Of a stretch of 24,012 nt of DNA, positions 551 through 14,225 are shown in pieces (position 1 is the first letter of the stretch; every line of letters begins with the position of its first letter). The notes under the pieces were generated by a model. It had not been told where the DNA came from. It searched no databases and was given only the letters and a program-made list of their open reading frames with translations. This DNA is from a virus. Location of the stretch: positions 1-24,012 of IMG/VR virus record IMGVR_UViG_3300017708_003042; one strand, written 5' to 3'. The translations under genes were made by a program, and so were the position numbers.

Positions 551-563
551 TAATATTTATAAT
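551..563 (+). promoter_or_regulatory. Late-type promoter, copy 1
   Basis: TAATATTTATAAT is identical to copies at 9802 and 13439. It ends 11 nt before the ATG at 575. There is no TTG -33 element at the expected distance. A lone -10-like box is the arrangement known for T4 late promoters (TATAAATA) read by gp55, and a gp55-like gene is present at 8979. The transcript leader would be only a few bases long. Confidence 0.55.
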
Positions 564-574
564 AAAATTATATA

Positions 575-922
575 ATGGCATCTTACACGGCACAACAATT
601 AAATGGAGCGGGAACACCAACAGAAGTACTTACTGGTCAAAAAACGTTTACATTAACTAACCCTTCAAGTGGATCTGCTTATTTTACTGTAGAAACAGTT
701 AGAAATGCTACTGGTTCCTATGCTAATAAACCTACTAATGCTTTAGGTACATATGCTACCTTTGTTGGAATTAATATTGATACATTAATCACATCATCTT
801 ACATATCATCTGTAGTTGTTCCTTCAGGAGCTAGTTCATATAAATTTACACCAACTGCTACTGTTGCTATTAGTTCTTCAATGTTAAGAGCTACTGGTGG
901 GGTTACATTAGTAATTTCTTAA
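575..922 (+). CDS. Small beta-rich presumed virion protein
   Basis: This 115-residue protein is rich in Ser, Thr, Ala, Gly and Val, with alternating short hydrophobic strands and no charged helices, signal peptide or membrane segment. It starts MASYTAQQLNG and ends GGVTLVIS. That composition, with the late-type promoter 11 nt upstream, fits a small structural protein such as a head decoration or tail accessory component, but no specific family is claimed. The ATG at 575 is the natural start given the promoter. The TAA stop overlaps the next start (TAATGG), so the lipoprotein at 922 is probably translationally coupled to it. The function is inferred from context only. Confidence 0.65.
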   Translation: MASYTAQQLNGAGTPTEVLTGQKTFTLTNPSSGSAYFTVETVRNATGSYANKPTNALGTYATFVGINIDTLITSSYISSVVVPSGASSYKFTPTATVAISSSMLRATGGVTLVIS

Positions 923-1482
923 TGGTTAGATTAGTATTAACATTATGTTTAATATTATTTTCCTGTAAAAAAAATACTGATGATTTTGGTTTTAGAACTT
1001 ATGTAATACTTGAGGGTACACATAGTTCTGGTAGATATTTTAATCATCCTACAAACTCAAGAATAGACTTTGACTTTATGTTAGATGAATCTGCCATCTA
1101 CACTACTGAAATACCAGAAAATCAATATGATGTAAATAAAATTTATGGTTTTAGTGATTTTGGTGTTACACATCAAAAATATTCAATAAGATTAGGTTGG
1201 AGATATATTAATGGTGAAATTGAATTATGTTGGTTAAGACATGAAGATGGTAGTCATAGTTCAGCTACTATAAGAACTATAGAACCAAACATACCTTATA
1301 ATGCTACAATAGATATTAAAACTTTTTATTATATTATTACTGTAGAGGGTGATACTACAATGGTTAGAAGGAGACCTGAGGGGAATTGGGGGTTAATTAA
1401 AAGATATTACTTATACCCCTATTTTGGTGGTAATGAATTTGCACCCCATGATATTACGGTGAAAATAAGAGAAAATAATTAA
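922..1482 (+). CDS. Phage-encoded lipoprotein, presumed beta-sandwich
   Basis: The 186-residue protein begins MVRLVLTLCLILFSCKK: a short positive n-region (R3), a hydrophobic core, and a lipobox LFSC with the acylated cysteine at residue 15. The residues after Cys (KKNTDD) resemble the charged signals that send Bacteroidota lipoproteins to the cell surface. The remainder is strand-rich with many aromatic residues and ends with YFGGNEFAPHDITV. This resembles, from memory, the C-terminal motif of small Bacteroidota jelly-roll lipoproteins; it is not a proven match. The gene shares the late-type promoter of the preceding gene through a one-base overlap. A role at the infected cell's outer membrane, such as superinfection exclusion, or a virion moron are both possible. 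It seems too large and beta-rich for an outer-membrane spanin. Confidence 0.7.
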   Translation: MVRLVLTLCLILFSCKKNTDDFGFRTYVILEGTHSSGRYFNHPTNSRIDFDFMLDESAIYTTEIPENQYDVNKIYGFSDFGVTHQKYSIRLGWRYINGEIELCWLRHEDGSHSSATIRTIEPNIPYNATIDIKTFYYIITVEGDTTMVRRRPEGNWGLIKRYYLYPYFGGNEFAPHDITVKIRENN

Positions 1483-1500
1483 AGACTCCCGCGAAAATAT

Positions 1501-1531
1501 TTGGCTCCCCAAGAGACCTTTCGTATATTTA
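1501..1531 (+). promoter_or_regulatory. Bacteroidota-type promoter P1 with TTGG-N4-CCAA dyad
   Basis: TTGG (1501-1504) lies 23 nt start-to-start upstream of TATATTTA (1524-1531), matching the Bacteroidota -33/-7 layout. The -33 box is the left arm of TTGG-CTCC-CCAA. The -7 box runs into a perfect 7-bp dyad, ATTTATG-T-CATAAAT (1527-1541). It serves the gene starting at 1579 through a roughly 40-nt leader that closely matches the leader of the DUF932 gene. Confidence 0.6.
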
Positions 1532-1578
1532 TGTCATAAATGAGTGCAAAACGCACACATATAATTAAAATAAAGGTT

Positions 1579-1821
1579 ATGAATAAATTAGAAATGCTCC
1601 ACACATTATCAATTCAAGAATTAAATGAAATTAAATTACAAGTTCAACAAATGATTGAGCTAAAACAACCAGGATTTAGAGTAGGAATGAAAGTTGGAGT
1701 TGATCATAAAAAAGTTATGGGAATGGTTGGTGAAATTATTAAAGTTAATAATAAAAAATGTAAGGTTAATTTTGATGGTCAAACATTTGTAGTTCCTAAA
1801 TCAATGATAATAATAAAGTAA
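1579..1821 (+). CDS. Small protein, helical N-terminus and SH3/KOW-like C-terminus
   Basis: This 80-residue protein starts MNKLEMLHTLSIQELNEIK. Residues 1-30 form a helix. The remaining segment is small, basic and strand-rich (VGMKVGVDH, MVGEIIKVN, KVNFDGQTFVVP), like the SH3-type barrels of KOW/CarD-like nucleic-acid-binding domains. An in-frame ATG at 1540 would add 13 residues, but it overlaps the promoter's start region. The ATG at 1579 is preceded by AAAGGTTATG, a context shared with the starts at 1918 and 7917, so 1579 is chosen. It has its own promoter (P1) and lies upstream of the similarly controlled DUF932 gene. A nucleic-acid-binding regulatory role is possible but unproven. Confidence 0.65.
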   Translation: MNKLEMLHTLSIQELNEIKLQVQQMIELKQPGFRVGMKVGVDHKKVMGMVGEIIKVNNKKCKVNFDGQTFVVPKSMIIIK

Positions 1822-1833
1822 TGCGCAGGAAGC

Positions 1834-1864
1834 TTGGATACCCGAGAGAGCTTTCGTATATTTA
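1834..1864 (+). promoter_or_regulatory. Bacteroidota-type promoter P2, near-duplicate of P1
   Basis: TTGG (1834-1837) and TATATTTA (1857-1864) are 23 nt apart start-to-start, exactly as in P1. The upstream dyad reads TTGG-ATAC-CCGA. From TTTCG through GCAAAACG (35 nt) most positions are the same as in P1, differing only in a few scattered bases. The similarity extends into the leader up to the AAAAGTTATG start of the gene at 1918. Confidence 0.6.
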
Positions 1865-1917
1865 CGGTATAAATAGATGCAAAACGAATAAAAACTAATA
1901 AAAAAAAAATAAAAGTT

Positions 1918-2736
1918 ATGATCAATATAGAAAATTTACAATCAGCAAAATTTATGAGTAAGGAAGAAATTAGTAAAGTAGCTCCTTCAGTATTTACAAT
2001 GAATCCTTCAGATGAGGTATCAGATAAATATACTCATATTCCAACAGAAGAAGTCATTAATGATATGGAAGAATTAGGTTGGGGAGTTGTTGATGCAAAA
2101 GAAGTTAAAGCTAGAACTAAATCAACAAAAGGATTCCAAAAACACTTACTAGTATTTAGAAATAATGATATTGTTATTAATGGAGAAGATGGAGATACTG
2201 TTTTTCCACAAATTCTATTAACAAATTCTCATGATGGTAAAAATGCTTTTACATTTACAGCAGGATTATTTAGAATGATTTGTGAAAATGGATTAGTTAT
2301 AGCAGACACAGAATTTGAAGATGTAAAAATGCGTCATATGGGTTATACATTTGAAGATTTACAATCAATGATTAAAGATATGGTTGAAAAATTACCATTA
2401 ACAGTTGAATCTATGAATAAGATGAAATCCATTGAATTAGAAGAAGAACAAGTATTAAAATTAGCAAAATCATTACTTGATATTAGAGTTAAAGGAACAG
2501 ATAACACATTTAATGATATTGCAGTTAAAGATGTGTTAGAATCTCAACGTAATGAAGATAGAGGTAATGGATTATGGGAAGTATTTAATAGAGTACAAGA
2601 AAACATCATTAATGGTAATTTTTATTATAATACTAAATCAGGAAAGCAAAGACAAGCTCGTATAATTAAGAATTTCAAACAAGATATTAGTTTAAATAGA
2701 AACATGTTTGCAAAAGCTTTAGAATTTGCTTGTTAA
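1918..2736 (+). CDS. DUF932 family protein
   Basis: The 272-residue product matches the phage/plasmid DUF932 family (TIGR03299-like). It has SDKYTHIPTEEVINDMEELGW near residues 35-55, then KHLLVFRN, then the family's central signature ILLTNSHDGKNAFTFTAG at about 100-117, FRMICENGLVIAD at about 118-130, and VKMRHMGYTFED at about 136-147. The C-terminal half is helical and charged. Family members are common in phages and plasmids. Their biochemical role is not established; links to DNA metabolism or anti-restriction have been suggested. The gene has its own promoter (P2), an A-rich leader with AAAAGTTATG at the start, and a strong terminator 15 nt after its stop, so it is a single-gene unit and probably early. 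Confidence 0.88.
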   Translation: MINIENLQSAKFMSKEEISKVAPSVFTMNPSDEVSDKYTHIPTEEVINDMEELGWGVVDAKEVKARTKSTKGFQKHLLVFRNNDIVINGEDGDTVFPQILLTNSHDGKNAFTFTAGLFRMICENGLVIADTEFEDVKMRHMGYTFEDLQSMIKDMVEKLPLTVESMNKMKSIELEEEQVLKLAKSLLDIRVKGTDNTFNDIAVKDVLESQRNEDRGNGLWEVFNRVQENIINGNFYYNTKSGKQRQARIIKNFKQDISLNRNMFAKALEFAC

Positions 2737-2750
2737 TAAATTAATATATG

Positions 2751-2785
2751 CGCATATAACCGCGTTTTTTTGCGGTTTTTATGCG
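2751..2785 (+). terminator. Strong intrinsic terminator
   Basis: AACCGC (2758-2763) pairs with GCGGTT (2772-2777) and is followed by TTTTT. An outer stem CGCATA (2751-2756) with TATGCG (2780-2785) extends the hairpin, with one and two unpaired bases between the stems. The loop holds seven T residues. It separates the DUF932 gene from the glycan cassette. Confidence 0.8.
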
Positions 2786-2797
2786 TTGTATAATATA

Positions 2798-2821
2798 TAT
2801 AATATGAATGTCACAGAATAA
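2798..2821 (+). promoter_or_regulatory. Shared leader element TATAATATG...CACAGAATAA, copy 1
   Basis: TATAATATG (2798-2806) is followed 5 nt later by CACAGAATAA (2812-2821). The same two blocks recur at 7687-7707 with a 2-nt gap. Each pair sits just upstream of a start codon (2847 and 7721). This may be a third promoter type or a leader binding site; no TTG -33 box is at the right distance. Confidence 0.35.
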
Positions 2822-2846
2822 TGCGAAATAATAAAAAAATTAATAT

Positions 2847-3881
2847 ATGAGTTGGGAACAATTATATCCAGAAGAAAATAATTTAGTAAAGTTATCTTTA
2901 GAAAATGGAGGAGTTATAAAACCTTTAATAATTCCGAGTGAATTTACAGGAGGAACAGGTCTTTGTAATGTTACTATTTTTAAAGACGAAATAGAAGGGT
3001 TATTAATTAATATAAGACATGTAGGGTATGTAATGCACCATGTTGAATTTAATCAAAAATACTGGGGTTTATGGGGAGCTATGCAATATATGAATCCTGA
3101 AGATTTCTGTTATCTAGAAACTGTTAATTATATGTGTCGTTTAAATGATGATTTAGATATAATCCAATATAATAAAATTGATACCTCAAAATTTGATAAA
3201 GAACCACTTTGGGATTTTATAGGTCAAGAAGATGTTAGAATTTTTAGATGGAATAATAAATTTTACACTTGTGGGGTTAGAAGAGATATAGACACTCAGG
3301 GAACAGGTAGGATGGAGATGTGTGAAATTAAATTTGATAATAATAAAGTTGTAGAAATTACAAGAGATAGAATTGAGGTTCCTGAAGATGGTGTTTATCT
3401 TGAAAAAAATTGGATGCCTGTTTTAGATATGCCTTACCATTTTATAAGACATGCTGATCCTGTAGAATTAGTGAAAGTAGATTGTGAAAATAAATCTTGT
3501 GTAGCAGTAGTTAAAAAAGATAAATCTGAAAAGATTGCAAATGTTATATTAGACGATTGTGATTTAAGAGGAGGATCTCAAGTTATTCCTTTTGGTGATG
3601 GTAGATTATGTATTACTCATGAATGTTTTTTCCCATTCCATCCTGTAGGAAATGGAAAAGATGCTCATTATTATCATAGGTTTGTATTTTATGATAAAGA
3701 TTGGAATATAGTAAAAGTATCTAAAAAATTTAAATTTATGGATGCTATGATTGAATTTAATTGTGGGTTAGCTGAAGAAGGTGATGATTTATTAATTACT
3801 TTTGGATATCAAGATAATGCCGCTTATATATTAAAAATGCCTAAAATTGTTTTAGAAAAAATAGAATATGAAAAATTATAA
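2847..3881 (+). CDS. Five-bladed beta-propeller, glycoside hydrolase (GH43/GH130)-like
   Basis: This 344-residue protein has the repeating strand pattern of a five-bladed propeller. Recognisable elements are GQEDVRIFRWNNKFY (about 126-140), EKNWMPVLDMPYHFI (about 186-200) followed by DPVELVKVD, a RGGSQVIPF motif near 240, HECFFPFHP with YYHRFVFYD in the next blade, and a final blade with DDLLITFGYQDNAAYIL. ED-R, KNW-P and GGS signatures recur in GH130-type and glycosyltransferase-associated propellers that bind or cleave beta-linked sugars. It lacks a signal peptide, so it would act in the cytoplasm. The following methyltransferase gene overlaps its 3' end by 14 nt and glycosyltransferases follow, so it probably processes or binds the same glycan. 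Catalytic activity is not certain from sequence alone. Confidence 0.65.
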   Translation: MSWEQLYPEENNLVKLSLENGGVIKPLIIPSEFTGGTGLCNVTIFKDEIEGLLINIRHVGYVMHHVEFNQKYWGLWGAMQYMNPEDFCYLETVNYMCRLNDDLDIIQYNKIDTSKFDKEPLWDFIGQEDVRIFRWNNKFYTCGVRRDIDTQGTGRMEMCEIKFDNNKVVEITRDRIEVPEDGVYLEKNWMPVLDMPYHFIRHADPVELVKVDCENKSCVAVVKKDKSEKIANVILDDCDLRGGSQVIPFGDGRLCITHECFFPFHPVGNGKDAHYYHRFVFYDKDWNIVKVSKKFKFMDAMIEFNCGLAEEGDDLLITFGYQDNAAYILKMPKIVLEKIEYEKL

Positions 3882-5199
3882 ATTAGAAGAAAAATTAAAT
3901 AAATATATTTTTGATCCTAGAAATAGTGTTTTAAATTTTGAATTAGCATGTGAATATTTTAGTGCTAAACAATATGCTTCAGCTTTATCTTATTATTTAA
4001 GATGTGCTGAATTGTCCGATGATGATGATTTAGTATATGAAAGTTTATTACTTACTTGGGATTGTATGGATAGAGTTGGGAGAAATAAAACATTTGAAAG
4101 AGGACAATTATTACAAATAATATCACAATCCCCCCATAGACCAGAAGCTTATTTAATGATGTGTCAATGGTTAGAATTTAATGGAGAAGCAAGGATAGAT
4201 TCTAAACAGGAAGTATTTACTTTAATGTATACTTATGCTAGTATTGGGATATCAAATGAAAAAAATGCAAAACCTTTTAGATATTTTAATAGGTATCCTG
4301 GATATTATGCCACTAGATTTTATAAAGCTTATGTTGGGTGGCAAATAGGAAAAATAAAAGAATCAGAAGATGGAATGATTGATTTATATAATAATCATAA
4401 ACATAATATGACTGAGGATTATAAAGTATACATATATAATAATATTGTAAATTTAAGAATACAGGATAGAGTTATAGAAAATGAAAATGAAAATAATAGT
4501 TATGAAGATGCTATTAAAAATACTAATTTTGTTTTATATGATAAAAGTAAATTTAATAGATTAAAATTTAAATTTGAGGGATCAGATAAAATAAAAGAAA
4601 ATTATGCTCAAGCATATCAAGATATTTTTGTTTTATCAGTGTTAAATGGAAAAAAAGATGGAACTTATTTAGAAATAGGATCATCATTACCCTACTATGG
4701 AAGTAATACTGTATTGCTAGAAAAAGAATTTAATTGGAAGGGTATATCATTAGATATAGACCAAAATGTAGTTAATCAATTTAAAGAAAAAAGAAATAAT
4801 AAAGTTATATGTAAAGACGCTACTAAGGTTGATTATAAAATGCTTTTAGATGAATTTGGTCATAAAACTATTGATTATTTACAAGTAGATTGTGAACCTG
4901 CTCATGTAACTTATGATATACTTTTAAAAATTCCACTTGATGAATATAAATTTGGTGTAATAACATTTGAACATGATAGTTATGAATTTGGACCTTCTAT
5001 TAGAGATATATCAAGACAATATTTAGAATCATTTGGTTATGTTTTAATTGTTGACAACGTTTCTCCTCTTAATGATAAACCTTTTGAAGATTGGTGGGTA
5101 CACCCAGATTTAATTGATATAGAAACAATAAATAAAATGAAATTAGTAGATGGAAAAACAAAAAATATTGAAAATTATATATTAAATGATGAAAAATAA
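3868..5199 (+). CDS. TPR-FkbM family methyltransferase
   Basis: This is a 443-residue two-domain protein. Residues 1-200 are helical repeats of TPR type (for example ACEYFSAKQYASALSYYLRC). Residues 245-420 are an FkbM-type SAM-dependent methyltransferase, with AQAYQDIFVL (247-256), the SAM loop YLEIGSS (267-273), acidic D296, DAT (317-319), DYLQVDCEP (336-344), EHDSYEFG (368-375) and EDWWVHP (407-413). FkbM enzymes usually O-methylate sugars or polyketides; here a sugar hydroxyl is the likely target because glycosyltransferases follow. The start overlaps the propeller gene by 14 nt and the end overlaps the next glycosyltransferase by 14 nt, so the cassette is translationally coupled. TPR-methyltransferase-glycosyltransferase groupings are typical of phage and surface-glycan loci. 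Confidence 0.88.
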   Translation: MKNYKLEEKLNKYIFDPRNSVLNFELACEYFSAKQYASALSYYLRCAELSDDDDLVYESLLLTWDCMDRVGRNKTFERGQLLQIISQSPHRPEAYLMMCQWLEFNGEARIDSKQEVFTLMYTYASIGISNEKNAKPFRYFNRYPGYYATRFYKAYVGWQIGKIKESEDGMIDLYNNHKHNMTEDYKVYIYNNIVNLRIQDRVIENENENNSYEDAIKNTNFVLYDKSKFNRLKFKFEGSDKIKENYAQAYQDIFVLSVLNGKKDGTYLEIGSSLPYYGSNTVLLEKEFNWKGISLDIDQNVVNQFKEKRNNKVICKDATKVDYKMLLDEFGHKTIDYLQVDCEPAHVTYDILLKIPLDEYKFGVITFEHDSYEFGPSIRDISRQYLESFGYVLIVDNVSPLNDKPFEDWWVHPDLIDIETINKMKLVDGKTKNIENYILNDEK

Positions 5200-6019
5200 A
5201 GGAATACCCGTTATAGGAGTACCTACTATTAATGGTGGGAAATGGTTAAAAAGATTAATTAATAGTGTTGATTACCCTGTAGATAATTTTATTATATTTA
5301 ATAATAATGGAAGAGGATTAATTACAGAAGTACTTGATAATTTTACTAAAATAAAACATCCATGGATTAAAAACATTGAAGTATGTCACCTTCCTTCTAA
5401 TTTGGGAGTTCCTACGGTTTGGAATCTTATAATTAAAAGTTATATAAATTCTCCATATTGGCTTATAACTCAAGATGATATCGCTTTTACTCCAGGGTTA
5501 TTAAAGAAAATGCATGAAATAACTTTAAATGGAGATATTGATATGGTTCATGCTAGTAATGGTTGGTTTGATAGGGGTTCTTATGATTTGTTTGTTATAA
5601 AAGAATCAGTTATTAAAAAAATAGGCTTATTTGATGAAAATTTATCTCCAGCTTATTGTGAAGACCATGATTATGCTTCAAGATGTTTAAGATATACTTG
5701 GGATAATCCAAAAGATGAAATTAAACATTATATTTTAGGGGCATCTTATTATCATGGTAGAGTCTTAAGTACAAATCCTACTTGTTATCCTGACCATGCT
5801 AGTCAAACTAAAAGATCAGATAGTGGAGAAATAAGTAGTGAGGAAATGCTTAAAAAAATCAATAATTCAAATGATCATAATAAACAATATTTAATTGAAA
5901 AGTGGGGAGAGGAATGTTTACAGTATCCTCAAAAATATCCTATGGGTATTGAAAATATCCCTATAGATTATACCAAATATGATATAGATTTTATTAGAAA
6001 AAAACACTTTAAATTTTAA
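5186..6019 (+). CDS. GT2-like glycosyltransferase A
   Basis: This 277-residue protein has a GT-A fold: an N-terminal nucleotide-binding half (IPVIGVPTINGGKWLKRL, then DNFIIFNNNGRG), SNLGVPTVWN at about 71-80, a DxD-type metal/nucleotide site in YWLITQDDIAFTPG (DD at 97-98), and an acceptor-side acidic motif PAYCEDHDY (about 155-163) after GLFDENL. It probably adds a sugar from a nucleotide-sugar donor to a phage or host glycan. Two adjacent ATGs (5186, 5189) are possible; alignment with the downstream paralogue favours 5189, a one-residue difference. It is cytoplasmic with no membrane segment. The C-terminal region is longer and His/Tyr-rich compared with the paralogue, suggesting a different acceptor. 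Confidence 0.85.
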   Translation: MMKNKGIPVIGVPTINGGKWLKRLINSVDYPVDNFIIFNNNGRGLITEVLDNFTKIKHPWIKNIEVCHLPSNLGVPTVWNLIIKSYINSPYWLITQDDIAFTPGLLKKMHEITLNGDIDMVHASNGWFDRGSYDLFVIKESVIKKIGLFDENLSPAYCEDHDYASRCLRYTWDNPKDEIKHYILGASYYHGRVLSTNPTCYPDHASQTKRSDSGEISSEEMLKKINNSNDHNKQYLIEKWGEECLQYPQKYPMGIENIPIDYTKYDIDFIRKKHFKF

Positions 6020-6022
6020 TTG

Positions 6023-6829
6023 ATGAAAAATAATTTAATACCAATTCCTATAATAGGAGTACCTGTAGTAAATGGAGTTCATTGGGTAGATAGATTAATT
6101 AAATCTATTGATTATCCTGTAGATAATTTACTTATCATTAATAATAATGGTAAAGGTGAAATTGATTCCCAACTAGATGATTTAAAAAAGATTGATAATG
6201 AATTTATTAAAAAGTTACACATTATCCATTTTCCTTCTAATTTAGGAGTAGCTTCTTCTTGGAACTTAATTATTAAATTATATTTAATGAAACCTTATTG
6301 GGTGATATGCAGTCATGATGTAGCTTTCACTCCAGGTTTATTAGAAGAAATTGCAATTGCTACTTTAGATAAAGAAGTTGCTATGGTACATCCTCATAAA
6401 GGACAATTTAATTTAGGAAGTTACGATTTATTTGTTATAACTGAAAAGGGGGTTAGAGATGTAGGTTTATTTGACGAAAATTTATACCCAGCTTATGCAG
6501 AAGATAGTGATTTTATAATGAGATTAAATAATATACAACCAAAAATGATTAAAGGTTTAAAAAATATCCATTTACATGGTGATGAAATTGCTAAGGCTGA
6601 TGATGAACATTATAAGAAAAATGGGATGCAAACTAAAAAAGAAAATGAAGAATTAGCTTGGTTATTAAATCAATCTAATGAAATAAATGGAGAATATTTA
6701 GCAAAAAAATGGGGTAATGGGTGGAGAACGGTTCAACCCCATTGGAATCCTTTTTGTAATGCTGAATACCCTCAATCATATATAACCTGGGATTTAGATT
6801 TTGTTAGAAAAAAATATTTAGGGTTTTAA
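6023..6829 (+). CDS. GT2-like glycosyltransferase B, tandem paralogue of A
   Basis: The 268-residue product aligns along its length with glycosyltransferase A: IIGVPVVNGVHWVDRL, YPVDNLLIINNNGKG, PSNLGVASSWNLIIK, AFTPGLLEE, GSYDLFVIT, VGLFDENLYPAYAEDSDF. The nucleotide-binding site reads CSHDV where A has TQDDI, so only the last acidic residue (D99) is kept. The acidic PAYAEDSDF motif is retained. Similarity is visible at DNA level, so this is a tandem duplication with divergence, probably to a second donor or acceptor. A TTG three bases earlier (6020) is in frame, but the ATG at 6023 matches the start context of gene A. The tRNA-Gln begins one base after the TAA stop. Confidence 0.85.
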   Translation: MKNNLIPIPIIGVPVVNGVHWVDRLIKSIDYPVDNLLIINNNGKGEIDSQLDDLKKIDNEFIKKLHIIHFPSNLGVASSWNLIIKLYLMKPYWVICSHDVAFTPGLLEEIAIATLDKEVAMVHPHKGQFNLGSYDLFVITEKGVRDVGLFDENLYPAYAEDSDFIMRLNNIQPKMIKGLKNIHLHGDEIAKADDEHYKKNGMQTKKENEELAWLLNQSNEINGEYLAKKWGNGWRTVQPHWNPFCNAEYPQSYITWDLDFVRKKYLGF

Positions 6830-6902
6830 TGTCCGATGGTGTAACTGGCAACACGTCTGTTTTTGGTGCAGAAGAGTCTAGGTTCGATCCCTAGTCGGAC
6901 AA
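6830..6902 (+). tRNA. tRNA-Gln (anticodon UUG)
   Basis: All arms fold: acceptor TGTCCGA/TCGGACA (7 bp, with the U1-A72 pair typical of bacterial tRNA-Gln), D stem GTGT/ACAC, anticodon stem TCTGT/GCAGA with loop TTTTGGT, and T arm CTAGG-TTCGATC-CCTAG. The anticodon TTG reads CAA, the overwhelmingly preferred Gln codon in this window. The discriminator is A. No CCA is encoded (CAT follows), so the tail must be added after processing. The gene begins at the base after the stop codon of the glycosyltransferase, so it is presumably cut out of that mRNA. Confidence 0.95.
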
Positions 6903-6922
6903 CATAATAAATAATAAATTAA

Positions 6923-7123
6923 ATGGAGAAATTTCAAGAAGAGTTTTTAGATAAAGTAGGAAGTGATGAGATAATAAAAATCTCTCAAATATTAGATAGA
7001 GTAAATAGACAAGAAAAATTAGTTGAAGTTATATATTATGCTTTAATAACTATGTCTAAATCAGATGGAAATATGACTCCTCTTTTAGCATTACAAATTG
7101 CTGAAGAGGATTGGGATATATAA
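6923..7123 (+). CDS. Small acidic helical protein, unknown
   Basis: This 66-residue, mostly helical and acidic protein runs from MEKFQEEFLDKVGSDEII to LQIAEEDWDI. No signal peptide, membrane segment or known motif is seen. It lies 20 nt after the tRNA and is probably on the same transcript. Its last codons overlap the promoter P4 that serves the next gene. Codon use matches its neighbours, and the plus-strand frame is the only sensible one here, so I consider it real but of unknown function. Confidence 0.6.
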   Translation: MEKFQEEFLDKVGSDEIIKISQILDRVNRQEKLVEVIYYALITMSKSDGNMTPLLALQIAEEDWDI

Positions 7124-7142
7124 TATATTTTTCATATATTTA
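7111..7142 (+). promoter_or_regulatory. Bacteroidota-type promoter P4, likely leaderless
   Basis: TTGG (7111-7114) and TATATTTA (7135-7142) are 24 nt apart start-to-start. The box is inside a perfect dyad, CATATAT-TTATG-ATATATG (7133-7151), whose right arm contains the ATG at 7149. With a start site expected a few bases after the -7 box, the mRNA would begin at or next to the start codon. It lacks the CCRA half-dyad seen in P1-P3. Confidence 0.5.
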
Positions 7143-7148
7143 TGATAT

Positions 7149-7571
7149 ATGGTAAATTTAGATAATATATTTCATTTATTTGAATCTAATGATAATTTAG
7201 ATGGTACAGAAAATAGTACTACTTTAATTGATTTTAAAAATACCCCTACATATTGGGTTGGGATGTATAAAAAATTAATACTAAACCATGTAAATTTTAA
7301 TAAAAAACTAGCTGAATTTTTTCAAAAGTCTAATAAAGATTTAGATATTAATGATATGAAGGAAGCAGGTGAATTTGTAACTTATAATAGAGCATGGTTA
7401 TATATTAAAAAAATCAATATTAAAAATGAAGAACATATGAAAGGCGCACAAAATTACGCAGATGAATATCTTGATACAGCGTTAAAATTAGGTATAAATT
7501 TTTTTATAGAAACCGAACAATATGAAAGATGTGCTCACCTTCAAAAAATTCTTAATAATCTTTCAGAATAG
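7149..7571 (+). CDS. Hypothetical helical phage protein
   Basis: The 140-residue product is predominantly helical. Features are an acidic, Asn-rich N-terminus (LFESNDNLDGTEN), an aromatic YWVGMYKKLI segment near 35-44, and a C-terminal helix FFIETEQYERCAHLQKIL that has the look of a short TPR-like or hairpin repeat ('EQYERC..L'). Similar C-terminal helices occur in uncharacterised small proteins of marine T4-like phages, to my recollection. There is no signal peptide. It has its own promoter P4 and is followed, within two bases of its stop codon, by promoter P3. Function unknown. Confidence 0.65.
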   Translation: MVNLDNIFHLFESNDNLDGTENSTTLIDFKNTPTYWVGMYKKLILNHVNFNKKLAEFFQKSNKDLDINDMKEAGEFVTYNRAWLYIKKINIKNEEHMKGAQNYADEYLDTALKLGINFFIETEQYERCAHLQKILNNLSE

Positions 7572-7572
7572 C

Positions 7573-7603
7573 TTGGATTCCCAAAATATTTTATATATCT
7601 TAG
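7573..7603 (+). promoter_or_regulatory. Bacteroidota-type promoter P3 with TTGG-N4-CCAA dyad
   Basis: TTGG (7573-7576) is part of TTGG-ATTC-CCAA, the same dyad as in P1 and P2. A TATCTTAG box lies 23 nt downstream (7596-7603). The box is embedded in a perfect 7-bp dyad TATATCT-T-AGATATA (7594-7608). It would drive the 7721-9788 gene block through a structured leader. Confidence 0.5.
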
Positions 7604-7610
7604 ATATAAA

Positions 7611-7641
7611 TTAATATTAGGTATTAAGGTACCAATGTTAA
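7611..7641 (+). promoter_or_regulatory. Leader hairpin downstream of P3
   Basis: TTAATATTAGGTA (7611-7623) pairs with TACCAATGTTAA (7630-7641) around a TTAAGG loop, with one bulged A and one G-T pair. No T-run follows, so it is not a simple terminator. It would form the 5' end of the transcript from P3. Confidence 0.35.
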
Positions 7642-7686
7642 TATGAATGGTAAAATGATAAAAATAAAGAGATTAGAGATATAAAG

Positions 7687-7707
7687 TATAATATGTACAC
7701 AGAATAA
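7687..7707 (+). promoter_or_regulatory. Shared leader element TATAATATG...CACAGAATAA, copy 2
   Basis: TATAATATG (7687-7695) and CACAGAATAA (7698-7707) repeat the blocks found at 2798-2821, with a shorter gap. The next start codon is at 7721. Its role is unknown. Confidence 0.35.
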
Positions 7708-7720
7708 CACTAAAATAATT

Positions 7721-7903
7721 ATGAGAAATAAAAATAATTGTATAAGATTAATGGAGAAATTAGAGTCAAAATTACAAACTCTAAATTTTATACTAAGTAG
7801 ACCCAATGCGAATGTTAATGAATTTAAAAAAGTAATTGATGAATCTAAGGATTTAATTCAAGACGTAAAATCATTTTTAGATCGCGAACAAGAAACAATG
7901 TAA
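7721..7903 (+). CDS. Small helical protein, unknown
   Basis: This 60-residue, two-helix protein has segments CIRLMEKLESKLQTLNFIL and EFKKVIDESKDLIQDVKSFL, highly charged with a heptad-like spacing of Leu/Ile that suggests a coiled coil or helical hairpin. There is no membrane segment or catalytic motif. It lies 13 nt after a leader element shared with the glycan cassette and 13 nt before the HD hydrolase gene, so it is probably co-transcribed with it. An overlapping minus-strand frame is rejected because it is only a T-rich shadow. Function unknown. Confidence 0.6.
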   Translation: MRNKNNCIRLMEKLESKLQTLNFILSRPNANVNEFKKVIDESKDLIQDVKSFLDREQETM

Positions 7904-7916
7904 AAATTAAAAGGTT

Positions 7917-8687
7917 ATGAAATTAACAGCAGAAAAAATACAATCTAATTGGGAAGATTTTATAAGTAATATTAATACTTATATTTCATCTCCTCGTAAA
8001 GAACAATTAACTAAATTTTATGAAACATATGCAGAACGTATTATGCTTATGCCAGCTGCTCATAAAAAAGAATACCATTCAGCATTCCCAGGTGGATATG
8101 TTGATCATGTTAATAGAGTAGTTCATGCAGCATTATCAATGTCAGATGTTTGGAAGTCTTTTGGGTGTGATATGGATACATTTACAACTGAAGAATTAGT
8201 ATTTTCAGCTATTAACCATGATTTAGGAAAAATGGGTGATAAAGATCATGAAGCTTATATTCCCCAAACTGATAAATGGAGAAAAGATAAATTAGGTGAG
8301 GATTATATGTTTAATAAAAAATTACCATTTTCATCCGTCCCTGATAGAACATTATTTCTTCTTCAGGATAATAATATCAAATATACTTTTAATGAAATGT
8401 TAGCAATTCAAACCCATGATGGGTTGTATGACTCAGCAAATGATAAATATTTAAAAGGATGGATGCCAGAACAAAAACCTCGTACTTCATTACCTTTTAT
8501 TTTACATCAGGCCGATATGATGGCTGCTCGAATTGAATTTGAAGTAGAATGGTTACCTAAATTTAAAAAAGATCAAAGCAAAATAAAAGAAAATTTTACA
8601 ATACAAAATAAAAAAACAACAACTAAATCTAAAGCCCTAGGCAATATATCAAGCCCAGGGTTAAAGAATATGTTAGACAATTTATAA
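7917..8687 (+). CDS. HD-domain phosphohydrolase
   Basis: The 256-residue protein carries an HD-type metal-dependent phosphohydrolase core. It has histidines at AFPGGYVDHVNRVVH (H64, H70), the defining HD in SAINHDLGK (H101, D102), a further QTHDGL (H167, D168) and LHQADMMAARIE (H197, D200). The order H...HD...H...D is that of the HD superfamily, which hydrolyses nucleotides, cyclic nucleotides or ppGpp-like phosphoesters. The C-terminal 40 residues are basic and look disordered. The start at 7917 has the AAAAGGTTATG context seen at 1579 and 1918. Substrate cannot be told from sequence; dNTP metabolism or degradation of a defence signal are both plausible. Confidence 0.88.
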   Translation: MKLTAEKIQSNWEDFISNINTYISSPRKEQLTKFYETYAERIMLMPAAHKKEYHSAFPGGYVDHVNRVVHAALSMSDVWKSFGCDMDTFTTEELVFSAINHDLGKMGDKDHEAYIPQTDKWRKDKLGEDYMFNKKLPFSSVPDRTLFLLQDNNIKYTFNEMLAIQTHDGLYDSANDKYLKGWMPEQKPRTSLPFILHQADMMAARIEFEVEWLPKFKKDQSKIKENFTIQNKKTTTKSKALGNISSPGLKNMLDNL

Positions 8688-8688
8688 T

Positions 8689-8967
8689 ATGGAAATAATA
8701 ATAATATCAATATTATCAATGTTAGTAATAGTATTAGGATTTGCAGTTTTTAACCTAATGAAAAAAAATGAACAACAAGAAGATATTTTAGTAGAATATA
8801 TGAAATGGCTTAATAAAATATCTAAAGCCATAGAAGTATCAGATGCAAGATTAAAAAAATTAGACTCACAAGGCAGGTTTGAAAGTGATGATGAAATAGG
8901 TTTTTTCTTTAAAACAGTTATGACAATACAAGATTTATTAAATGGATTTAAAATTAAAGATATATAA
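8689..8967 (+). CDS. Small N-terminally membrane-anchored protein
   Basis: This 92-residue protein has one hydrophobic segment, residues 2-22 (IIIISILSMLVIVLGFAVFNL), followed by KK, predicting an N-terminal anchor with the rest cytoplasmic. The soluble part is a charged helix (about 25-60) and a terminal segment RFESDDEIGFFFKTVMTIQD. I recall similar FESDDE-GFFF tails in small uncharacterised proteins of T4-like marine phages. It starts one base after the HD gene's stop codon and ends 11 nt before the late sigma gene, so it belongs to the same unit. Function unknown. Confidence 0.65.
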   Translation: MEIIIISILSMLVIVLGFAVFNLMKKNEQQEDILVEYMKWLNKISKAIEVSDARLKKLDSQGRFESDDEIGFFFKTVMTIQDLLNGFKIKDI

Positions 8968-8978
8968 CTTATGACTAC

Positions 8979-9788
8979 ATGGATAATATAATAAGAGAAG
9001 CAAAGAAAAAAAGACAAAAACGAAATTATTTTACTCAAGAAACTGAAGACGCTATTGTTAGATATAATATTAGTGATGATAAAAGTTTTAAAAGTATAAC
9101 TTACCAAAAAGAGATTCACTATCCTTTTTATAAACTAACTGAAAATATTATTCATACTTTTAAGTTTTACTACACAGATGGTGTTGAAAATTTAGAAGAC
9201 TTACAACATGAAATCATGGTATTTCTTTTAGATAAAATTCATCTTTTTGATCCCTCAAAAGGAGCTAAAGCTTATTCTTATTTTGGAACTATTGTTAAAA
9301 GATGGCTAATAGTTTACAACCAAAAAAATTATAAAAAAAGAATTGAATCCGTTGATATTGGGGATATATCTAAACATCAAAATCTAGATGAGGGAGATAA
9401 TTCAACCTTTATATTAAATTCTAAATTAGAACAATCCTCTCAAAAATTTATAGATTTAGATAAAAACTTTGGTGATGAATTATATAATAAAGGATATAAA
9501 GAAGGTGATAGATTATCTATTTTTGTAGATTTATACGTAAAATATATGACTGAAAGAATATACAGTTATTTTCCTAAAGAATATGATGCTCAAATAGCAG
9601 ATTGTATTTTAGAATTATTTAGAAAAAGAGATGCAATTGATGTTTTTAATAAAAAAGCACTTTATATTTATATAAGAGAAATGATTGACGTAAAAACTCC
9701 TAAAATAACTAAAATAGCTAATAAATTATATAAAGTATTTAAAGAAAAATATTTAGTATTTTCTGAAAGTGGTTATTTTCCCTCTTAA
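8979..9788 (+). CDS. 55: Late-transcription sigma factor, gp55-like
   Basis: The 269-residue protein has a basic N-terminus (REAKKKRQKRNYF) followed by a sigma region-2-like core at residues 18-112: FTQETEDAIVRYN, YPFYKLTENIIHTFKFYY, LEDLQHEIMVFLLDKIHLFDP, and KAYSYFGTIVKRWLI. That order matches T4 gp55-type factors of marine T4-like phages, which redirect host RNA polymerase to late promoters. T4 gp55 is about 185 residues; this one has a C-terminal helical extension of roughly 100 residues. The putative late promoter TAATATTTATAAT lies 13 nt after its stop codon and opens the baseplate operon. The gp45/gp33 partners are not in this window. Confidence 0.85.
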   Translation: MDNIIREAKKKRQKRNYFTQETEDAIVRYNISDDKSFKSITYQKEIHYPFYKLTENIIHTFKFYYTDGVENLEDLQHEIMVFLLDKIHLFDPSKGAKAYSYFGTIVKRWLIVYNQKNYKKRIESVDIGDISKHQNLDEGDNSTFILNSKLEQSSQKFIDLDKNFGDELYNKGYKEGDRLSIFVDLYVKYMTERIYSYFPKEYDAQIADCILELFRKRDAIDVFNKKALYIYIREMIDVKTPKITKIANKLYKVFKEKYLVFSESGYFPS

Positions 9789-9801
9789 AAGTTTAAATTC
9801 T

Positions 9802-9814
9802 TAATATTTATAAT
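9802..9814 (+). promoter_or_regulatory. Late-type promoter, copy 2
   Basis: TAATATTTATAAT is identical to the copies at 551 and 13439. It ends 8 nt before the ATG at 9823 and has no TTG -33 box. It lies between the gp55-like gene and the first baseplate-operon gene. Confidence 0.6.
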
Positions 9815-9822
9815 CAAAAATT

Positions 9823-10179
9823 ATGGGACAACTAGATTCAATAATATTTGGTGATAAAAAATTTTCAGATATTCTTCATGAAATATATGAAAACCAAACC
9901 ACTAAAAAACAACAAATTACATCTTTAATAAGTGAATTAAAACCTTTGATTCAAGAAATAGGTGATGCTACTTTAATAGTACCTTTAATAAAGGAATATT
10001 TAGAAATCGGGGTAAAAAATGATGAGCAACTAATTAAAATGGCTACTATTATCCAAAGAGCTGTAAATAATACAAATGATGAAGATGGTTTTGGTATAAC
10101 TGAAGAAGAAAAAGCAGAATTATTAGCTGAAATGGATAAATTAGAAAGAATAAATAAAGAAAACAAAACTAATGGCTAG
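9823..10179 (+). CDS. Hypothetical helical protein, first gene of baseplate operon
   Basis: This 118-residue protein is almost entirely helical and acidic. It starts MGQLDSIIFGDKKFSDILHEIYEN and ends with a charged helix EEEKAELLAEMDKLERINKE. There are no membrane segments or enzymatic motifs. It directly follows the late-type promoter and overlaps the hub gene by 8 nt, so it is a late gene and probably a tail assembly factor, chaperone or small baseplate component. No T4 homologue is recognised. Confidence 0.6.
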   Translation: MGQLDSIIFGDKKFSDILHEIYENQTTKKQQITSLISELKPLIQEIGDATLIVPLIKEYLEIGVKNDEQLIKMATIIQRAVNNTNDEDGFGITEEEKAELLAEMDKLERINKENKTNG

Positions 10180-11416
10180 AATTCCTACAGGATTAAATTC
10201 ATTAAAACATACTACTATACCTTCCTCTAAAGGATCTGAAATAATTCCTGTAAGAGTTAAATTTGTTTCCTTAAATGGAAATGATTACCCAATTAATTGG
10301 AAAAAATATGGAGAATATAGTAGTGTAGGTAGTATTTTATTTGAAGATTTAACAAATCCCTCAGGTGCTCCTTTAGATACTTTAAGTTATGCTAATCCAC
10401 TTTATTCAAATATAAAATTCTTACCATTAGTTAATGAAATAGTTTACATAATTTCTTTACCTAATGCCTCAACTCAAGAAAATCCCTCTACAGGTAATCA
10501 ATATTATTATTTTCAAAGTATTAATATTTGGAATAGTATTCATCATAACGCATCTCCAAATTCACTTACAACAGAACCTACTAATACTCAAAATTATAAT
10601 AAAACAGAAGCAGGAGTTGAAACCCAAGCAGACTCTACTCCAGAAGAAATTAATTTTGGGTTTACTTTTAAGGAAAAATTAGGGATAAGGAATTTACAAC
10701 CTTTTGAAGGTGATGTTTTAATTGAAGGAAGATGGGGTAATACTATAAGATTTGGTAGTACAGTAAAAAATTCATCTCCTTTAAATCCCTGGTCTAATAG
10801 TGGAGAAAATGGTGAACCTATTACTATTATAAAAAACGGGCAAACTAAAACTAATGATGATCCTTGGATACCTCAAGTAGAAAACATAAATACTGATAAA
10901 TCTTCTATTTATTTAACTTCAAATCAGCAAATACCTATAGGAGCGGCTAATACTGATTACAGTTCATACACACCTGCTTTTGGTGAAGTTCCTAGTTCAC
11001 CTAGTTCATATAATGGTTCTCAAGTTATTGTTGATTCAGGACGTTTATTATTTAATTCTAAAAATGATCATATTTTACTTAGTTCTGCAAGAACAATTTC
11101 ATTTGGAGCACAAAAAGGTTTTAATTTTGATACTACTTCTAATTTTGTTGTTAAAGTAGGAACCAAAATAATGTTAGGAGATAAAGAAGAAAGTAATACT
11201 GAACCTTTAATATTAGGAGATAAATTTTTAGCTGATTTTCAAAAATTACTAACTAATGTAGTTTCTTTAACCTCAGCTTTAGGGACTGTGGGCACACCTA
11301 CTCCTTTTACTCCAAATATAGCAGTAGCACAAACAGCAACAAAAGTAGGATTACAAGCACAGTCTATGTTATCTTCAATTGAATTTTATAAATCAAAAAC
11401 AACAAGAACTTTATAA
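10172..11416 (+). CDS. gp5-like baseplate hub/spike protein
   Basis: The 414-residue protein has an N-terminal OB-like barrel (about 25-97: PVRVKFVSLNGNDYP ... FLPLVNEIVYIISLP). A linker follows, then PFEGDVLIEGRWGNTIRFGS (177-196), GEPITIIKNGQ (214-224) and NINTDKSSIYLTSNQ (238-252), and finally short repeated strands (NDHILLSSARTISF ... FVVKVGTKIMLG, about 296-336) of the kind that build a triple-stranded spike. This is the layout of gpV/gp5-type puncturing proteins. Unlike T4 gp5, no lysozyme domain is visible between the OB fold and the helix. The C-terminus (about 350-414) is helical. It overlaps the next gene by one base (TAATGG). I am sure it is a structural hub-type protein and fairly sure of the gp5 relation. 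Confidence 0.75.
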   Translation: MARIPTGLNSLKHTTIPSSKGSEIIPVRVKFVSLNGNDYPINWKKYGEYSSVGSILFEDLTNPSGAPLDTLSYANPLYSNIKFLPLVNEIVYIISLPNASTQENPSTGNQYYYFQSINIWNSIHHNASPNSLTTEPTNTQNYNKTEAGVETQADSTPEEINFGFTFKEKLGIRNLQPFEGDVLIEGRWGNTIRFGSTVKNSSPLNPWSNSGENGEPITIIKNGQTKTNDDPWIPQVENINTDKSSIYLTSNQQIPIGAANTDYSSYTPAFGEVPSSPSSYNGSQVIVDSGRLLFNSKNDHILLSSARTISFGAQKGFNFDTTSNFVVKVGTKIMLGDKEESNTEPLILGDKFLADFQKLLTNVVSLTSALGTVGTPTPFTPNIAVAQTATKVGLQAQSMLSSIEFYKSKTTRTL

Positions 11417-13416
11417 TGGCTTTAGCAGGATTTATATCAAAAATAGTTCAAAGTATAACTAGAACAACATTTCAATTTAATAAAACTTTAGATGTATTAA
11501 TATCACAATTTAAAGATGCCTGCCCTACAACAGAAGAATTAAAATCTTTAATTAATCAAAAAAACCAAATTAATGGAGCTTTAGTACAAATCGAGGGAAA
11601 AATAGCTACTTTAAATAAGGTAGCAGCAGGTTCTGAAATAGCTGTTGAAGCTTTAAGCGCAGGAAAAACTATAATTAAACAACTACCAATTCCATCATCA
11701 GTTCCACCAGGAATAGGATTACCTTTAAGTGTAACTAATAATTTTTCTGATGCATTAGATAATTTAGGAACTTTAATAGATAAAGAAGAAGCATCTTTAG
11801 AATCTATTCCTGAAGCTTTAGAATTAATAAGTAAAGATGTTGGAGAAGTAATTACTAAATTAAATGAATTAGATGTTGTTTTAAATAATTGTTTAGAAAA
11901 AGACCCTAATATAACTCAAGCAGATTTAGATGCTATAATAGCTACAACTGGAAATTTTGTAGGGGTACTAACTAATGAACAATTAGAAGAAATACTAAAT
12001 AACCCTCCAGGTTTGTTATATGGTGATTATTATTTAAGATTAAATTATGTTGAAGTAAGTCAAGCTACTTTAAGTGCTTTTAATGAAGATATTGCTGAAG
12101 GAGAAGGAGAATTACTTAATGCTACTTCAATTGGAACAGCTACACTTACTAATAGATCATTTGATAAAAAACAAGTAACAGCCCAAAATAAAGAATCAGT
12201 CCCTCCCCCAGGTGATTTTTATAATGAAAATATAGCAGTTGAAATTTTATATGGAGACGAATCATTTTCCTCATCTAATATAGTTTTAGTTGATGAAATG
12301 AAATGGTTAATTGATACAAAAGATTTAATATTTTTACCACCTCCTCCCCAAGAAGATCCTCTTAAAGCTATTTATAAAGAAAATCAGGTTATTTTATTAA
12401 TGAGTCTTTTTGGTGCCAATAGAGAAGAAGCAGAAGAAATATATGAATTAGCTTGGGAATTATCACAAAATAAGGGACCAAATAAAGGGTACTATGATAC
12501 CTTAGTTAAAGAAGCTTTTGATAATTCTAGAACTATTCTAGAACAAGCTGTTGCTAATGAAGGATATGAATGGAAAGAAGGTGATAGAGTTTTAGATTCA
12601 ACCATAAAAAAATTATTTTTACCTAATATAACTGATGAAATTAAAATTAAATCTAATATAAGCTTATTAAGAAGAAAAGGTGTAAATTTAGAAAAACAAG
12701 CAAATTCTTTAGGGGGTAATTATAATACTACAGATAAAAGATGGAACAATGATGGAGAATTTAACTTTACCCCTAATGCTAAATTATATCCCTATTCTGA
12801 AAGGTTAGCACTAACAGCTGAAAATTTATTTAATGATGCTACTATTGGGAGTTCTTTCATAGGTTTAAGATCAGAAATGAAGAGAAGAAAACCCTTATGG
12901 CAAGCTATATTTGAAGAAGCTAATTATATAAGTTTAACAAACCCTGATGTTTCTTTTAACGATCCTTTAAAAGAATATTTTAATAGTAAGGGAATGGGAT
13001 ATAATACTCCAAGTGTAAATGGTATACCTATAGTAGGAAATTCATCCACACCTATTACTTTTGAAGAAGGAGAAGAATTATATGATAGAGAAAAAGATAT
13101 AAATGCAGAATGGTTCTTTAATAATTCAAATTTAAATGATACTCCACAAATTACACCTAATGGTGTAACCTTTGAAATGTTAAATGCTTATTCAAAAACC
13201 CAATTAATGATAAAATTAAAAACTGCATTGGGTAATGGATGGTATAATCAAAGTGCAATAACAACATCAGAATTACCATTTTGGGCACCTTCAGGGGGTA
13301 ATCCAAATGATAGTACTTACTATCAAGGAAAAGATCCAAATTATGGTTTAAATCCAAGTGATAAATGGTATTTTGAATTTGGTAGAAATGGTTTACCTAT
13401 ACCAACTGGGTCATAA
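11416..13416 (+). CDS. Large baseplate-operon structural protein, unknown
   Basis: This 666-residue protein has several parts. Residues 1-190 are helical with coiled-coil character and a Pro/Gly break (PIPSSVPPGIGLP, about 93-105). Residues 195-300 are strand-rich (YYLRLNYVEVS, AVEILYGDE). A PPPPQEDP linker near 310-318 leads to a helical C-terminal half with many aromatic residues. No enzyme motif, signal peptide or membrane segment is seen. Its place between the gp5-like protein and gp25 suggests a hub component, in the position where T4-like phages carry hub proteins, but no specific T4 equivalent can be named. It starts within the previous stop codon. The next gene has its own late-type promoter. 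Confidence 0.6.
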   Translation: MALAGFISKIVQSITRTTFQFNKTLDVLISQFKDACPTTEELKSLINQKNQINGALVQIEGKIATLNKVAAGSEIAVEALSAGKTIIKQLPIPSSVPPGIGLPLSVTNNFSDALDNLGTLIDKEEASLESIPEALELISKDVGEVITKLNELDVVLNNCLEKDPNITQADLDAIIATTGNFVGVLTNEQLEEILNNPPGLLYGDYYLRLNYVEVSQATLSAFNEDIAEGEGELLNATSIGTATLTNRSFDKKQVTAQNKESVPPPGDFYNENIAVEILYGDESFSSSNIVLVDEMKWLIDTKDLIFLPPPPQEDPLKAIYKENQVILLMSLFGANREEAEEIYELAWELSQNKGPNKGYYDTLVKEAFDNSRTILEQAVANEGYEWKEGDRVLDSTIKKLFLPNITDEIKIKSNISLLRRKGVNLEKQANSLGGNYNTTDKRWNNDGEFNFTPNAKLYPYSERLALTAENLFNDATIGSSFIGLRSEMKRRKPLWQAIFEEANYISLTNPDVSFNDPLKEYFNSKGMGYNTPSVNGIPIVGNSSTPITFEEGEELYDREKDINAEWFFNNSNLNDTPQITPNGVTFEMLNAYSKTQLMIKLKTALGNGWYNQSAITTSELPFWAPSGGNPNDSTYYQGKDPNYGLNPSDKWYFEFGRNGLPIPTGS

Positions 13417-13438
13417 TCGATATAAAAACAAAAATTAA

Positions 13439-13451
13439 TAATATTTATAAT
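13439..13451 (+). promoter_or_regulatory. Late-type promoter, copy 3
   Basis: TAATATTTATAAT, identical to the copies at 551 and 9802, ends 10 nt before the ATG at 13462. No TTG -33 box is present. It would start a second baseplate transcript covering gp25, gp6 and the downstream tail genes. Confidence 0.6.
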
Positions 13452-13461
13452 AAAACTAAAG

Positions 13462-13818
13462 ATGAAATTAACAGAATTAAAAAAAGTATTAAAAGAAACT
13501 GTTAGAGAAGTAATACAAGAAGAATTAAAGGACATACTTTTAGAAGCAGTAAAAACACCAAAAGTAGTTACACAAACTCCAGTAATGGAATCTTTTAATC
13601 CTATTTCTTCACAACCACCAATACCTACTACTCCTATAATGTCTTCTCAAGAAAAAAGAGATGCTTACAAAAACATATTAGGTGAAACAGCAGCAGGATT
13701 TAATACTAATAATGTACAATCTTTTAAACCTAACCCAGGAATGGATATGGCAAATGGTTCTTTACCTGAAGGGAATGTTGGTATGGATCAAATAATGAAT
13801 TTAATGAATACTAAATAA
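13462..13818 (+). CDS. Small virion/assembly protein with charged helix and disordered tail
   Basis: This 118-residue protein has residues 1-31 as a strongly amphipathic charged helix (MKLTELKKVLKETVREVIQ...). The rest is Pro, Asn, Gly, Met and Ser-rich and probably disordered (SSQPPIPTTPIMSS, MANGSLPEGNVGM). Helix-plus-tail proteins like this are common in T4-like marine phage virion operons and may act as adaptors or chaperones. It follows a late-type promoter and shares one base with the gp25 gene. Function is unknown. Confidence 0.55.
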   Translation: MKLTELKKVLKETVREVIQEELKDILLEAVKTPKVVTQTPVMESFNPISSQPPIPTTPIMSSQEKRDAYKNILGETAAGFNTNNVQSFKPNPGMDMANGSLPEGNVGMDQIMNLMNTK

Positions 13819-14225
13819 TGGTTCAAATTGTAAATATTCCTCCACCAACACCTAATAGTGGTAGTGTTGCTTTAGGATTTAGTTTACCTATGTCGGGTAA
13901 TGCAGTATTTAACCCAACATTTACTACTAAAGAAGTAATAAAAACTAATTTATTAAATTGGCTATTAACTAATAAGGGTGAAAGAGTAATGAGACCTCTT
14001 TTTGGTGCAAATTTAAGAGATTTTATTGGAGAGGGTATTAATGATGGAACAAATAGTGCTATTGAAGCACGGATTAAAGATAATATTTCATTAGAATTTC
14101 CTTCAGTAATAGTTAAAAGTGTAGAATTTGATAATCAACCTGATCGTAACACAATAAATTTATTTATAAATTATATGATTAATAATATAGGGGTAGAAGA
14201 TTCAATAAATATAGCAATACAATAA
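13818..14225 (+). CDS. 25: Baseplate wedge protein gp25 (GPW/gp25 family)
   Basis: The 135-residue product has the family core TNLLNWLLTNKGERVMRPLFGANLRDFIGEG at about 35-66. The xKGERVMRPxFG motif is diagnostic of gp25/gpW wedge proteins, which resemble type VI secretion TssE. A strand-rich C-terminus with VIVKSVEFDN follows. It joins gp6 in the wedge and helps initiate sheath assembly. Length is close to the family norm. It overlaps both neighbours by one base, and gp6 follows immediately as in T4. Confidence 0.93.
   Translation: MVQIVNIPPPTPNSGSVALGFSLPMSGNAVFNPTFTTKEVIKTNLLNWLLTNKGERVMRPLFGANLRDFIGEGINDGTNSAIEARIKDNISLEFPSVIVKSVEFDNQPDRNTINLFINYMINNIGVEDSINIAIQ

Follow-up and report, generated by a model that had tools for sequence, protein, structure and literature searches.

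The motif copies and the genes behind them

The stretch of viral DNA analysed here ("the window"; 24,012 nt, IMG/VR record IMGVR_UViG_3300017708_003042) carries a gene for a sigma-like protein and, at three places, one and the same 13-nt sequence, TAATATTTATAAT, raising the question of whether these copies are promoters and, if so, which sigma factor reads them. A preliminary description had proposed that they form the late promoter of a Bacteroidota phage, recognised by an encoded sigma resembling gp55 of phage T4.

The three copies are exact matches, all on the plus strand (Table 1), relative to a chance mean of 0.07 in the window; none of 100 dinucleotide shuffles reached three. Gaps of 11, 8 and 10 nt separate them from the ATGs of the ORFs starting at 575, 9823 and 13462, no copy has a TTG at the -33 register, and the second begins 13 nt past the stop codon of the sigma-like ORF, all in agreement with what had been described. 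When two mismatches were allowed, 29 matches were found versus 20.6 by chance, and loose matching of the 13-mer was abandoned in favour of its core; a count so close to chance suggests that the signal resides in the core and its placement. Noncoding DNA of the window contains only six plus-strand TATTTA sites, namely the three copies, which we assign to a class L, and three sites of a second class, E, each with a TTG and a spacer of 20-21 nt.

Each copy had been said to precede a block of presumed virion genes. This holds for copies 2 and 3, whose conserved blocks run into genes of the gp25 and gp6 baseplate type (the gp6-like protein is 46% identical to the wedge protein of Flavobacterium phage immuto), but is less certain for copy 1, since the 115-aa ORF behind it has no family match. 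Just upstream of copy 1, some 550 nt (positions 1-550) are free of ORFs and of Rfam matches. Between the early-type genes and the sigma gene, positions 3868-6829 are taken up by successive ORFs of the TPR/FkbM-methyltransferase-like and glycosyltransferase-like kinds, and a tRNA-Gln gene (anticodon ttg; 6830-6903) separates the glycosyltransferase-like ORF from small ORFs.

Table 1. Putative promoters and neighbouring genes in the window
Feature	Position	Strand	Remarks
L-class (late-type) promoter, copy 1	551..563	+	core TATTTATA at 554-561; ATG at 575
E-class promoter	1501..1531	+	TTG-N20-TATATTTA
E-class promoter	1834..1864	+	TTG-N20-TATATTTA; before DUF932 gene at 1918
E-class-like promoter	7111..7142	+	21-nt spacer; before ORF at 7149
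Sigma-70-like gene	8979..9788	+	269 aa; Pfam Sigma70_r2, E 2e-5, above cut-off
L-class promoter, copy 2	9802..9814	+	core at 9805-9812; ATG at 9823; 13 nt past sigma-like gene
First gene of copy 2 block	9823..10179	+	conserved across the group; orthologue of immuto gp117
L-class promoter, copy 3	13439..13451	+	core at 13442-13449; ATG at 13462
First gene of copy 3 block	13462..13818	+	used for comparison of orthologue upstream regions
gp25-like baseplate wedge gene, copy 3 block	13818..14225	+	Pfam GPW_gp25, 1.1e-9; PHROG_261, 7e-17
gp6-like baseplate wedge gene, copy 3 block	14225..16102	+	PHROG_10646, 2e-16

Conservation of a shorter core

The sigma-like protein of the window, used as query, recovered 80 viral loci (57-98% identity), and in all 80 the DNA that follows the sigma stop codon carries a TATTTAT core, mostly as ATATTTATAA, before the next gene begins. 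The immuto sigma yielded 80 further loci, 63 of which have TATTTATA within 100 nt past the stop codon; the remainder have variants of the TATTTATT type, CTATTTATTA among them. The conserved unit is thus some 8 bp long, TATTTATA, preceded by A or C and leading into A-rich DNA. Judged by these comparisons, the functional core is [A/C]TATTTATA followed by A-rich DNA, shorter than the 13-mer that had been taken for the motif.

The same core marks the regions upstream of orthologues of the genes behind the copies. [AC]TATTTATA is present in 46/46 distinct upstream regions for the first gene of the copy 3 block and in 51/55 for that of copy 2; for the copy 1 gene the strict core was found in three of five, the other two being ATATTTATCA variants. 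Operon-internal control genes had the strict core in 0/33, 0/12, 0/31, 0/28, 0/7 and 2/22 distinct upstream regions, a large contrast, although the orthologues are phylogenetically related and do not constitute independent trials. The base preceding TATTTATA is A in 91% of cases in the 158-kb IMG/VR contig G001 and often C in immuto-like contigs, and this A-to-C shift between two clades is consistent with a co-evolving, trans-acting reader. The distant sigma-bearing records Mel-JY01 (a Microcystis phage) and LR756508, whose sigmas share 33-42% identity, had the motif without clear preference for either strand in the stretches examined, and their promoter box may differ; a search for viral relatives from the Mel-JY01 sigma found none.

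Distribution in long relatives

The record of the source phage consists of the window only, and the genome-wide counts by strand and distance to start codons, compared with shuffled sequence as had been proposed, were made on two long relatives: the complete 160-kb genome of immuto and G001, for which genes were called with a purpose-made simple ORF caller. Immuto is an isolate whose host is Flavobacterium sp. LMO8, bearing out the assignment to a Bacteroidota phage. The distribution proved non-random. The motif recurs 20-30 times in each genome, mostly in intergenic DNA and in the direction of the genes. Gene-strand [AC]TATTTATA begins 9-45 nt 5' of a start codon at 23 of 28 sites in immuto (4.9% expected; p 7e-26) and at 20 of 27 in G001 (4.4% expected; p 6e-22). 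The longer ATATTTATAA lies on the gene strand rather than the other by 8 to 0 in immuto and 20 to 1 in G001, with 7 and 12 noncoding occurrences, respectively, relative to shuffle means of 0.4-0.5. Leaders predicted from these sites are mostly 2-35 nt long, and a few predicted L starts would land within a coding region.

The L sites of immuto are concentrated beyond 78 kb, in the virion module, which holds 16/23 of them and 0/20 of the E sites (Fisher 9e-7). Genes first after L sites include those for the terminase TerL, portal, tail sheath, tail tube, tape measure and tail spike, and a named virion, packaging or lysis gene comes first after 8/23 L sites versus 1/20 E sites (p 0.024), a difference that weakens to p 0.10 with a looser L consensus. 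At some L sites the gene that follows is of replication type or has no assigned function, and among the late genes, some, such as that for the major capsid protein, have no recognisable L site. Intrinsic terminators precede 4/23 L sites and 15/214 genes, without clear enrichment, and were dropped as support for the class.

A second class of sites in the same genomes

Genomes with L sites also contain the E class, TTG-N20-TATATTTA, which lacks the TAA extension and has its spacer fixed at 20. All 23 E sites of immuto counted by strand are on plus and none on minus, most of them at 60-76 kb before small ORFs, a clustering within the early-type region. In the window, the -7 box of the E site before the DUF932 gene is also found upstream of many orthologues of that gene. 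The Bacteroidota promoter consensus is a -33 TTTG and a -7 TAnnTTTG (PMC6847099), and the E class fits the spacing and box layout of these sigma-ABfr promoters, with A in place of the last G. TATTTA is common to the L core and the E -7 box. The L class differs from sigma-ABfr promoters in that most L sites have no -33 box, the core is extended by TAA, and C can occupy A-11; the three copies in the window lack the -33 TTG and have A, not G, after TTT. The two classes also diverge immediately after the core (TATAA in L versus A[C/G]n in E) and at the -33 box. It is the presence in the same genome of a class that does have the -33 box, and whose -7 core is almost the same, that gives the missing -33 box of L its meaning. 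A scan for standard sigma-70 elements (TTGACA/TATAAT) returned fewer sites than in shuffles.

Some sites combine the two classes: TTG-N20-TATATTTATAA joins a -33 TTG to an L core, and four records, for example, have a -33 TTG with TATTTATAA before their orthologues of immuto 90688. TTG is at the exact -33 register in 10/76 pooled L sites (~13%), compared with one or two at most other offsets. Such hybrids show that the -33 TTG and the L core are separable modules, and they may fire both early and late. Orthologues of the 140-aa ORF at 7149-7571 have an L core in 17/44 and an E-type -7 box in 19/44 distinct upstream regions, suggesting that this gene may have changed promoter class repeatedly. 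The E sites at 1501-1531 and 1834-1864, like those of G001, share TTTGG, a CC.GAGAGA-like spacer stretch and TTCG directly before the -7 box, and this extra sequence might be a site for another factor.

The sigma-like protein and comparison with T4

Sigma70_r2 is matched by 15/18 members of the sigma family. A Pfam scan of four long relatives (immuto, G001, G016 and G017; E<=0.05) listed one such match each in G001 and G017, none in immuto and G016, and no second match in any, although divergent sigmas could escape it. The G001 protein scores 26.6 bits, compared with 14.5 bits for gp55, the only match in T4. Five of the 18 members matched PHROG_234 (late sigma; best E 0.0043), and hhalign against a profile of seven gp55 proteins aligned region 2 only, with a probability of 35%, falling to 3% for a broader alignment. 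The description of the protein as gp55-like is borne out for its region-2 homology and its adjacency to the motif; membership in the gp55 family is at most tentative, the profile similarity being weak and no homologues of gp45 and gp33 having been found in the searches below.

In AlphaFold (AF2) models (pLDDT 67 and 80) the sigma is helical; a disordered linker follows the region-2 helices and leads to a C-terminal helical domain that is among the most invariant parts of the family and is not clearly alignable to gp55, which resembles the group sigma in region 2 alone. Neither Foldseek against the PDB nor Pfam identified this segment. With the first model, the top 50 Foldseek matches were mainly sigma factors, none of them significant (best E 0.019); the better model gave no significant PDB match and only a weak one to viral models (E 0.0038), and profile searches with the family against solved structures returned nothing useful. 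We do not claim the C-terminus as sigma region 4, the Foldseek matches being non-significant and Pfam giving no support.

T4 gp55 reads TATAAATA with no -35 element, is activated by gp33 and the gp45 clamp (PMC2988020), and flips the non-template-strand bases -12, -9 and -8 (PMC7892883). The resemblance of the L class to this system consists in a single 8-bp -10-like box before virion genes, with no conserved -35/-33 element, together with a phage-encoded protein with sigma region 2; TATTTATA equals TATAAATA at 6/8 positions in the same orientation, with A-12 kept. As had been proposed, the core nevertheless differs from that of T4: the coding strand carries TATTTATA rather than the T4 box (-13 to -6), whose two central A's (-10 and -9 in T4 numbering) are replaced by T. 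TATAAATA itself is present only as the reverse complement or, in some loci, incidentally overlapping the 3' end of the motif, and a reading of the motif as an opposite-strand T4 box was rejected because the genes are on the other side. Profiles of the gp45-type clamp, beta clamp and gp33 families (PF02916, PF00712 and PF16805) found no match in immuto, which is complete, or in G001, G016 and G017, which may not be, and very divergent partners could escape them; PF02916 and PF16805 did detect the gp45 and gp33 genes of the T4 control.

Weighing the explanations

We consider it likely that the three copies are minimal -10-like elements of the late promoter class L, read by a phage sigma on the host core polymerase, and, as part of the same explanation, that an L promoter does not require a -33 element. 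We infer this promoter activity, and the pairing of sigma with box, from the two classes and their conservation, strand, spacing and gene context. The reader of TATTTATA is probably the phage-encoded sigma-like protein of the window, which on the best reading of its sequence would act like gp55 without necessarily belonging to its family. Of the late promoter previously proposed, the promoter-like element, its placement before late-type genes and the missing -33 box are borne out, and late timing is inferred from this context.

The strongest competitor is that the L sites are promoters read by a sigma of the host, its primary one or some other, that a phage activator perhaps stands in for the -33 contact, and that the adjacent sigma-like gene has a different role. 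The L core does overlap the E -7 core (TATATTTA) almost wholly, L/E hybrids occur, and distant relatives encode the sigma but lack the motif. We nonetheless regard host reading as improbable, because the two classes are consistently distinct after the core and at the -33 box, because the C that often precedes TATTTATA in immuto-like contigs yields CTATTTAT and so breaks A-11 of TAnnTTTG, and because 160 loci pair the motif with a phage sigma gene. That the motif acts instead in translation initiation or mRNA processing is suggested by its nearness to the ATG and by the preference of Bacteroidota, which lack a Shine-Dalgarno sequence, for adenines 5' of the start (PMC6847099). Yet its distance to the start varies as widely as the predicted leaders do, it is found at only ~20 of 190-215 genes and is missing from operon-internal ones, and its core is common to the TTG-N20 promoter class, which makes such a role very unlikely. 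Chance in AT-rich DNA, for which the 28% G+C of the window and the near-random number of two-mismatch matches might speak, is scarcely credible in view of the strand bias, the intergenic placement, the shuffles and the phylogenetic footprint; the occurrence of the core in every distinct region upstream of the copy 3 gene refutes it.

Proposed mechanism and significance

Under the preferred explanation, reading by the phage sigma, the host primary sigma of Bacteroidota would read E promoters before early-type genes. Expressed from an upstream promoter, the phage sigma would accumulate and capture the host core polymerase, and its region 2 alone would contact the L element on the non-template strand and open L promoters, so that the switch from E to L would come with sigma accumulation. 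Because copy 2 directly follows the sigma gene, sigma made from the upstream promoter would open the next block; copy 3 would drive the block with the gp25- and gp6-like baseplate genes. L transcription would begin ~5-11 nt before the first ATG of the conserved blocks (at ~564-567 for copy 1, by prediction), giving very short leaders of 5-8 nt on T4 spacing or 8-11 nt with the host -7 register. More tentatively, and in our judgement with the odds against it, one protein may replace both gp55 and gp33 in a late system free of clamp and co-activator, region 2 reading TATTTATA while the C-terminal domain, itself reading no DNA, binds to the flap of the polymerase. If this were true, late transcription would be uncoupled from replication via the sliding clamp.

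A phage late sigma with a lone -10 box is of a kind already known from T4. What would be new is such a pair in phages that infect a different phylum, where the box is not that of T4 and its accessory genes have not been detected. We found no published late promoters of Flavobacterium phages in the open-access literature that was searched; a prior description may exist outside it.

If correct, this explanation would provide a readable early/late promoter code for a widespread group of T4-like phages that infect Bacteroidota and have few annotated genes, and would allow gene timing to be deduced from sequence. It would also mean that a late sigma and its lone -10 box need not come with the clamp machinery of T4. 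The existence of immuto as an isolate on Flavobacterium sp. LMO8 makes the code directly testable, and the phage sigma and its 8-bp promoter would be candidate orthogonal expression parts for Flavobacterium.
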